Origin: Verrucomicrobiota bacterium
GTDB lineage: Bacteria; Verrucomicrobiota; Verrucomicrobiia; Opitutales; Opitutaceae
DNA length: 64,000 nt
Direction: 5' to 3'
Assembly: GCA_016871755.1 (NCBI GenBank)
Contig: VHCJ01000006.1
Location: 1 to 64,000, forward strand
The notes below the pieces were generated by a model. It had not been told where the DNA came from, did not search any database, and saw only the letters and a list, made by a program, of their open reading frames with translations. The position numbers and the translations under genes were made by a program. Position 1 is the stretch's first letter, and every line of letters begins with the position of its first letter. Below are positions 18,413 through 22,100 of this stretch, piece after piece.

Positions 18413-19264
18413 ATGCGCTTCGCGAAGTACCACGCCCTCGGCAACGACTACCTCGTCCTCGATCCGGCCGACTACCCGGATTGGACCGCTCCATCCGAGG
18501 CACAGATCCGGGTCATCTGCCACCGCAACTTCGGCGCGGGCTCCGATGGCATCCTTTGGGGGCCGCTGCCTTCCACCGCCTGCGACGTGGGGCTGCGCAT
18601 CTTCAACCCGGACGGCTCGGAGGCCGAGAAGTCCGGCAACGGCCTGCGCATCTTCTCGCGCTACCTGTGGGACCAGAAGCTCGTGCGCGGCGCGACGTTC
18701 ACGGTCGAGACGCCCGGTGGGGCCGTGCGTTCCGAAATCAAGGAGGGAGGCAAGCTCATCACCGTCGACATGGGCCGAGTCAGCTTCACCAGTTCGAAGA
18801 TCCCGGTGACCGGCCCTGATCGCGAGGTGCTCAATGAGCCGCTGCGGATCCAGGATCGGGACTTCGTGATCTGCGCCGCGACCATCGGGAATCCCCACTG
18901 CGTGATCCGTTTGCCCGAGGTGTCCGAGGCGCTCGCCCGGCGCTACGGGCCGGACATCGAGGTGCACCCGCAGTTCCCGAGAAAGACGAACGTCCAATTC
19001 CTCCAGGTCATCGACCGCCGGAACATCCGCATCGAAATCTGGGAGCGCGGTGCCGGCTATACCCTCGCCTCGGGCAGCAGTTCCAGCGCCGCCGCCGCCG
19101 TCGCCCACCGCCTCGGTCTCGTCGATGCCGATGCGACCGTCCACATGCCCGGCGGGCAGATCGGGATCCTGATCGCACCGGACTACGCGATCCGCATGAC
19201 CGGCACGGTGAACAAGGTGGCAGAAGGCGCGCTTCACCCCGAGCTTTTCGAGGTGAAGGTTTAA
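18413..19264 (+). CDS. dapF: DapF-family protein with both catalytic cysteines replaced by serine
   Basis: A 283-residue diaminopimelate epimerase homologue. Canonical DapF converts LL- to meso-diaminopimelate with two cysteines as acid and base (Cys73 and Cys217 in Haemophilus). The fold landmarks are all here: FAKYHALGNDYLVLD, FNPDGSEAEKSGNGLR, TIGNPHCVI and EIWERGAGYTLASG. At the first catalytic site the protein has Ser74 (EAEKSGNG, codon tcc) and at the second Ser220 (TLASGSSSSAA, codon tcg). It may be inactive, slow, or use another chemistry. The gene is intact with no frameshift and lies about 1.6 kb from dapL, whose product needs an epimerase. The ATG at 18413 matches the family start. 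Confidence 0.85.
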   Translation: MRFAKYHALGNDYLVLDPADYPDWTAPSEAQIRVICHRNFGAGSDGILWGPLPSTACDVGLRIFNPDGSEAEKSGNGLRIFSRYLWDQKLVRGATFTVETPGGAVRSEIKEGGKLITVDMGRVSFTSSKIPVTGPDREVLNEPLRIQDRDFVICAATIGNPHCVIRLPEVSEALARRYGPDIEVHPQFPRKTNVQFLQVIDRRNIRIEIWERGAGYTLASGSSSSAAAAVAHRLGLVDADATVHMPGGQIGILIAPDYAIRMTGTVNKVAEGALHPELFEVKV

Positions 19265-20873: not shown

Positions 20874-22100
20874 ATGATCCGCATCAACGAGAACTACACC
20901 AAGCTGAAGGCCTCCTACCTCTTCAGCGACATCGCCAAGCGCGTCTCCGCCTACACCCAGGCCAACCCGGACAAGCCGGTCATTCGCCTCGGCATCGGCG
21001 ACGTGACCGAGCCGCTGCCCGCGGTGTGCATCGAGGCGCTGCACCGGGCCACGGACGAGATGGCGGTCCGCTCCTCCTTCAAGGGCTACGGTCCGGAGCA
21101 GGGCTACGCGTTCCTGCGCGAGGCGATCGCCCAGCACGACTACTCGGCGCGCGGCTGCGCGATCGAAGCCGACGAGATCTTCGTCTCCGACGGCTCCAAG
21201 TGCGACTGCGGCAACATCCAGGAGATCTTCGCGACGGAGGGGCTGCGCCTCGCCATCCCCGATCCGGTGTACCCGGTCTACGTCGACACCAACGTCATGG
21301 CCGGACGCACCGGTGCCAACGTCAACGGCCGCTACGAGGGCGTCACATACCTCGAGAGCACGCCCGCGAACGGCTACGTGCCTTCGATCCCGGACGTCGG
21401 CGCGGACCTCATCTACCTCTGCTTCCCGAACAACCCCACCGGCGCGGTCGCCACCCGGGCGCAGTTGGAGGCGTGGGTCGCCTACGCACGGCGCAACCAA
21501 GCCATCATCCTCTTCGACTCCGCCTACGAGGCCTACATCCGCGACCCGCAGATCCCGCACTCGATCTACGAGATCCCGGGAGCCCGGGAGGTCGCGATCG
21601 AATTCCGGAGCTTCTCCAAGACCGCCGGATTCACCGGCACGCGCTGCGCCTACACCGTTGTCCCGAAGTCGCTGCAGGCCTTCGACACCGCGGGCCGTCC
21701 GCATTCCGTCCACGCGCTCTGGAACCGGCGCCACACGACCAAGTTCAACGGCGTCTCCTACCCCGTCCAGAAGGCCGCCGCGGCGATCTTCACGCCGGCC
21801 GGCCAGGAGCAGGTTCGGGCCATGACCGACTTCTACCTCGCGAACGCGGCGCTGATCCGTTCCGCCATGACGAAGCTCGGATTCGGCTGCGTCGGCGGCG
21901 ACAATGCCCCCTACATTTGGATCAACACCGGACGCGACTCCTGGGAATTCTTCGATCAACTCCTGAACCGGGCCCAAGTCGTGTGCACACCGGGCGCCGG
22001 TTTCGGAAAGTGCGGCGAGGGGCACGTGCGCATCAGCGCCTTCAACTCCCGCGCGAACGTCGAGCACGCGCTCGCCCGCATCGCGGGCGCGCTCCAGTAG
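20874..22100 (+). CDS. dapL: LL-diaminopimelate aminotransferase
   Basis: A 408-residue PLP aminotransferase that converts tetrahydrodipicolinate to LL-diaminopimelate in one step, the DapL route known from plants, Chlamydiae and Verrucomicrobia. Family marks are [21 protein letters not shown] at the N-terminus, [33 protein letters not shown], the substrate region [10 protein letters not shown], and the PLP lysine in [15 protein letters not shown]. The C-terminal NAPYIWINT and [17 protein letters not shown] are intact. The ATG at 20874 fits the family start. Its product must be epimerised before use in peptidoglycan and lysine synthesis, which makes the serine-substituted DapF nearby notable. 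Confidence 0.96.

Follow-up and report, generated by a model that had tools for sequence, protein, structure and literature searches.

A diaminopimelate epimerase homologue with serine at both catalytic cysteine positions in Opitutaceae and related bacteria

DapF and related two-base enzymes

Diaminopimelate epimerase (DapF) is a textbook two-cysteine enzyme and an antibacterial target. In canonical DapF, two thiols, each located at the N-terminus of a helix, exchange the alpha proton of the substrate. The residues in contact with diaminopimelate (DAP) are Asn11, Asn64, the Gly-Asn pair that follows the first Cys, Asn190, Glu208 and Arg209 in H. influenzae numbering. The enzyme is a model for the removal, without a cofactor, of an unactivated alpha proton with a pKa near 29 (PMC8142540).

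Several described enzymes share the fold or the two-base chemistry of DapF. The histidine racemases HisR and CntK and O-ureidoserine racemase (PDB 9cr6, 6jiw, 7vdy) have a DapF-like fold and natural cysteines; their serine versions are laboratory mutants, and in HisR the single changes C67S and C209S each remove most of the activity (PMC11602996). Natural replacement of a catalytic Cys by a hydroxyl residue is found in the aspartate/glutamate racemases Ecl-DER and MMP0739 and in human trans-3-hydroxyproline dehydratase, which belong with the cofactor-independent two-base racemases and epimerases. In these enzymes one base is changed, from Cys to Thr, and the result is a one-way racemase or a dehydratase (PMC8142540). 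The DapF of Chlamydia trachomatis (NF038284) is, like the present one, a DapF of the PVC group in genomes that often have no glutamate racemase (MurI), but it retains and needs both cysteines, C72 and C207 (PMC5885031).

The protein described here differs from all of these in that serine replaces both bases, in a DapF. It is encoded in a stretch of 64,000 nucleotides, referred to as the window, from a Verrucomicrobiota bacterium (contig VHCJ01000006.1), and it represents a class that we call S-type. Full-text literature searches, with few subscription journals covered, gave no earlier report of a natural DapF with both cysteines replaced.

The S-type protein and its active site

S-type dapF occupies positions 18,413–19,264 of the (+) strand, stop codon included, in an intact frame of 283 codons that gives a full-length product of 283 residues. 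The genome is a draft of 144 contigs, 97.4% complete, whose nearest relatives are labelled Opitutaceae. The protein is a DapF by every profile tried: it matches TIGR00652, the DapF equivalog, with 229.1 bits (cut-off 114.65) over model positions 1–268 of 270, and PF01678 with 184 bits. NCBI’s model names it DapF, and DAP epimerases, at about 33–37% identity, are its best relatives among solved structures. NF038284, the model for bifunctional DapF and glutamate racemase, has a cut-off of 350, and the protein scores 64.6 bits on it.

The protein shares its fold, its length, its substrate-binding residues and its place in the pathway with DapF (TIGR00652/PF01678; PDB 9mro, 1gqz, 3ejx), while the two catalytic motifs, EMCGNG and GETLACGTGAC in DapF, read EKSGNG and GYTLASGSSSS in the S-type. 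Ser74 (codon TCC, 18,632–18,634, in EAEKSGNG) and Ser220 (codon TCG, 19,070–19,072, in TLASGSSSS), both on the (+) strand, align with the first and second catalytic cysteines of the solved DapF structures. The codons and this alignment bear out the initial annotation, which had placed serines at both acid/base positions. It was also right about the frame, but it went too far in calling all other family motifs intact. Among substrate residues, N11, N65, G75, N76, H162, N193, E211, R212 and G221 are indeed kept, and N11, N65, G75, N76, N193, E211 and R212 are common to S-type and canonical sequences. The surroundings of the serines, however, are changed: Met to Lys73, Ala or Gly to Ser44, Glu to Tyr216, the GTGA loop to GSSS, Arg to Glu208 and Glu to Gln195.

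Both the serines and these changes are characteristic of the class. Serine stands at both positions in all 109 S-type sequences of a first set of relatives and in all 143 distinct sequences of a larger set; the 28 canonical sequences compared, taken from the same phylum and from solved structures, all have Cys at both. Lys73 (18,629–18,631, (+)), which adjoins Ser74, is present in 142 of the 143 and is Met, Thr or Gln in canonical DapF. Ser44 (18,542–18,544, (+)), in the GxGSDG loop, is present in 141, and all canonical sequences but one have Ala, Gly, Phe or Cys there. Tyr216 (19,058–19,060, (+)), in ERGAGYT, is present in 140, where canonical sequences have Glu, Val, Ile or Ala. Ser223 (19,079–19,081, (+)) is invariant in the S-type (143/143) and stands at the Gly of the canonical GTG, which is itself invariant (28/28). 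Gln195 (143/143), Ile80 (142/143) and Glu208 (141/143) are also fixed or nearly so. The exceptions include three members with His or Asn in place of Tyr216 and one with Ile in place of Lys73.

Compared with two sister species, the gene has dN 0.034 and dS 0.97 in one case and dN 0.042 and dS 0.96 in the other, giving dN/dS of 0.036–0.043; judged from these rates and from the alignment, S-type dapF is under strong selection. Over 79 genes, the codon for Ser74 is TCN in 68 and AGY in 11, and that for Ser220 is TCN in 77 and AGC in two. Cys or Thr, the intermediates of single-base moves between TCN and AGY, was seen in no S-type member. In an IQ-TREE analysis the S-type sequences group as a single, moderately supported clade (UFBoot 71); in FastTree, support for the corresponding node is low after rerooting.

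The AlphaFold2 model of the protein, built with 29 aligned orthologues, has a pLDDT of 94.8, and the predicted structure has the two-domain pseudosymmetric fold of DapF, probably in its closed form. The closest solved structure is 9mro, a cyanobacterial DAP epimerase (Z 39.4, rmsd 1.7 over 272 residues), which comes from an inhibitor-bound entry with D,L-aziDAP or alpha-methyl-DAP; H. influenzae 1gqz is more distant (Z 34.2, rmsd 2.6). In the model, Ser74 and Ser220 each lie at the N-terminus of a helix (residues 75–87 and 221–233).

The explanation that we favour, at a probability of roughly 0.6, is that this gene encodes the diaminopimelate epimerase of the organism, with Ser74 and Ser220 as the acid–base pair in a retuned site. 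The S-type enzyme would use the fold and the substrate contacts of DapF, and the two serines would take over from the cysteines the 1,1-proton transfer at the alpha carbon. The helix dipoles and the type-specific neighbours, Lys73 and Ser44 near Ser74 and Tyr216 and Ser223 near Ser220, may lower the effective pKa of the serine hydroxyls. Since the single HisR mutants are crippled and the natural Cys-to-Thr variants are altered in their reaction, an enzyme with a bare double Cys-to-Ser swap would be expected to work poorly. That both serines have a private set of neighbours suggests compensation. We infer from these observations that S-type DapF has activity, with the serines themselves as acid and base, and that the neighbours have the roles given here.

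The main rival to serine bases gives the part of a base to Lys73 or Tyr216. In this broader alternative, the protein is a DAP epimerase in vivo, but the proton transfer is carried by one of these residues or by a bound cofactor such as pyridoxal phosphate (PLP). Lys73 and Tyr216 mark the S-type almost as strictly as the serines do, Lys, Tyr and Ser act as bases in PLP racemases (PMC8142540), and the Chlamydia DapF is reported to be PLP-dependent for glutamate (PMC5885031). Even so, the serines stand exactly where DapF has its cysteines and do not vary at all, while Tyr216 and Lys73 have the exceptions noted above, and DapF is otherwise PLP-independent. We regard this alternative as rather unlikely.

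If the serine pair does act as proposed, the two-thiol mechanism is not obligatory in the DapF superfamily, and the S-type enzyme should withstand both oxidation and DapF inhibitors directed at thiols. A strict Ser/Ser clade from which the reaction has apparently not been lost would show that the chemistry is feasible with much weaker acids, and confirmed activity would mean that nature has a cysteine-free version of a core enzyme mechanism. The existence of two DapF types makes the question testable by swaps of residue sets.

Distribution and the alternatives to DapF

A phylum-wide draw of 289 genomes was counted by type from the score table, with S-type defined as a match at E < 1e-60 (at least 50% identity) and the remaining matches at 5e-54 or weaker. 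By this count the S-type is present in 58 of the 289. It fills nearly the whole order of the window’s organism and is also present in five further families, f34, f44, f50, f60 and f65. At about 60% identity it also appears in metagenome-assembled genomes (MAGs) labelled Sedimentisphaerales, Planctomycetota, KSB1 and Deltaproteobacteria, labels that may reflect misbinning; one of those labelled Sedimentisphaerales (G321) has two PF01678 genes.

The window’s genome has this PF01678 gene only, and the complete genome of the isolate IMCC26134 (G327) likewise has one only. In none of the 58 S-type genomes was a Cys-type DapF with the ERG motif found beside the S-type. The initial annotation had left open a second true epimerase in another part of the genome; none was found there among PF01678 genes, nor as the meso-DAP dehydrogenase Ddh. 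The combination that it had named as refuting, a canonical dapF at another place and lost conservation of this gene, was checked and does not hold.

Four S-type genomes (G145, G190, G217, G253) do have a divergent PF01678 gene in addition. In the three that were read (G190, G253 and G217), this paralogue has Cys at both sites, and FEFGVE(D/S)ETLACGTG replaces the ERG motif; since the Arg for the distal carboxylate is missing, its substrate may not be DAP.

The two types can occur in close relatives. Within genus g81, G058 has the S-type and G125 a canonical Cys DapF, as read from its sequence, and the match in G218 falls in the score range of the Cys-type. Four other genomes of the same family or order (G016, G021, G255, G031) have a Cys DapF only. 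An exchange of types at one locus was looked for in the 16–17 kb around dapF in G058 and G125, and no common genes were found at the threshold used; the surroundings of dapF in G021 and G013, and in G255 and G012, are likewise without common genes at that threshold.

Ddh makes meso-DAP directly and bypasses the epimerase. In G180 and G207, small genomes of the same order as the window’s organism, DapF is absent and Ddh is present at more than 440 bits; in G207, Ddh (C18:64647-65633) adjoins MurI (63727-64485). Ddh was found neither in the window’s genome, where a bypass of this kind is rejected, nor in most S-type genomes tested, although two S-type genomes, G011 and G053, carry it. Neither DapF nor Ddh was seen in G001, G008 (89% complete) and G315, where assembly gaps are possible.

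Orthology, fold, conservation, sole copy, mutual exclusion with the Cys-type and pathway context are established for S-type DapF. Because the serines are strictly conserved, the two types exclude each other and DapF-less relatives have the Ddh bypass, a cysteine-free epimerase is the best supported of the three readings first proposed, although the comparison is one of genomes. The S-type protein is a DapF descendant that most likely works as one, even though it has neither of the two cysteines by which DapF is recognised.

The third of those readings, a change of reaction, is the next to be weighed. The protein might catalyse an elimination, a dehydration or the racemisation of another amino acid, with meso-DAP supplied by an unrecognised enzyme. 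Precedent exists in the hydroxyproline branch of the same fold, where a Cys-to-Thr change turned an epimerase into a dehydratase (PMC8142540). A role in D-glutamate supply is conceivable, given that MurI is missing from most S-type genomes, but it is missing from most Cys-type genomes too and so gives no pointer to the S-type. The mutual exclusion of the two types, the presence of Ddh where DapF is missing and the retained DAP contacts all speak against a changed reaction, which would in addition leave DapL and LysA unlinked in S-type genomes. We consider it unlikely, and prefer the serine-based DAP epimerase.

Absence of MurI has been reported for PVC bacteria (PMC5885031). In the present sample there is no match in 187 of the 289 genomes, whatever their DapF type, single-contig genomes such as G053 among them; a hand count gives a strong match in nine of the 58 S-type genomes. 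A link between the S-type and the loss of MurI is rejected on account of the Cys-type genomes that lack it. A rough Fisher test on hand-entered tallies is given no weight, since genomes that are related do not count as independent.

Pathway context and cell-wall genes

DapL, the LL-diaminopimelate aminotransferase, yields LL-DAP, and LysA decarboxylates the D-centre of meso-DAP and hence needs that isomer. S-type DapF would convert the LL-DAP from DapL into meso-DAP for LysA, and thus for lysine, and also for MurE, and thus for peptidoglycan, in relatives with working Mur ligases. In the window, dapL lies at 20,874–22,100 (+), with an approximate start (TIGR03542, 560 bits, cut-off 364.7). Across genomes, DapL is above cut-off in 22 of 38 tested. 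LysA has matches in 30 of 30 and is above cut-off in the window’s genome and in the S-type Opitutaceae relatives. MurE has the DNPR motif, typical of meso-DAP ligases, in nearly all relatives read.

The initial annotation had drawn on the position of dapF near dapL. The two genes are near each other in the window, but a redoxin/AhpC-like gene (PF08534; 19,323–20,240, (−)) lies between them, and the neighbourhood is common only to two sister species and one KSB1-labelled MAG (51% identity). Since it is so limited, the proximity carries little evidence, and a dapF–dapL operon is rejected.

Chemical data exist for the same family in the available text of Rast and co-workers (PMC5303756). DAP was found by GC/MS in three Lacunisphaera strains and in Opitutus terrae, in low amount, with ornithine also present and the DAP stereoisomers unresolved; thin-layer chromatography on these Opitutaceae saw no DL-DAP. 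The list of pathway genes for Lacunisphaera in that text includes DapF and does not mention the missing cysteines; the orthologue of the window protein in Lacunisphaera limnophila is WP_069963382.1. Taken with the gene content, meso-DAP is likely to be present in Opitutaceae. The odds lean slightly towards the wider proposal that the whole order makes meso-DAP by a cofactor-free, thiol-free epimerase with two serine bases tuned by Lys73, Ser44, Tyr216 and Ser223.

The scarcity of DAP and the presence of ornithine in that text (PMC5303756), together with the loss of both canonical catalytic residues, could instead point to an inactive pseudoenzyme with a structural or regulatory role, in cells that use LL-DAP or another diamino acid. 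Such a protein is hard to reconcile with strong purifying selection on the neighbours of the active site and on the substrate contacts, or with LysA, which requires the D-centre of meso-DAP and has matches in all genomes tested, and we hold it to be improbable. A sequencing or binning artefact, which a draft in 144 contigs might lead one to suspect, is refuted for the clade, as is the decay of a paralogue next to a true dapF: identical residues are seen in 143 distinct sequences, among them those of isolates and of a complete genome, dN/dS is about 0.04, both codon groups are kept at Ser74, and the genome has no second DapF.

Apart from dapF, the cell-wall genes of the window’s species are unusual. 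In its genome (G000) and in the sister species G003 and G005, the ligases for the first three residues of the stem peptide are lost or changed; the dcw cluster loci concerned are G000:C1 (L278:9226-18668), G005:C12 (L279) and G003:C215 (L294). A full read of MurE in G000 finds that the P-loop GTNGKT, the NLxxDHLDYH stretch and other motifs are lost and that DNPR is kept; MurE in G005 scores 390 bits, against about 440–530 in most other relatives. MurD is a conserved remnant of 282 residues in all three genomes. In G000 only MurB is recognised, and the MurC part of the MurC–MurB fusion, which is 796–803 residues long in relatives as assigned without a family test, is apparently gone.

Mpl attaches a preformed tripeptide to UDP-MurNAc, a route that avoids precisely the steps of MurC, MurD and MurE. 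It occurs twice in G000 (TIGR01081, 394 and 385 bits, cut-off 388.7), at G000:C89 (L281:2477-4087) and G000:C3 (L282:1325-2779), with one copy each examined in G005 and G007. This suggests a wall made from salvaged tripeptide, or Mpl in place of the lost ligases. Since the Mur ligases are lost or degenerate, DapF in the window’s species may serve lysine synthesis above all. MurF, MurB, Ddl, MraY, MurG, FtsW, FtsA and FtsZ have counterparts in the Mur-degenerate species, and the Mur remnants themselves are under purifying selection, with dN/dS of about 0.08–0.19.
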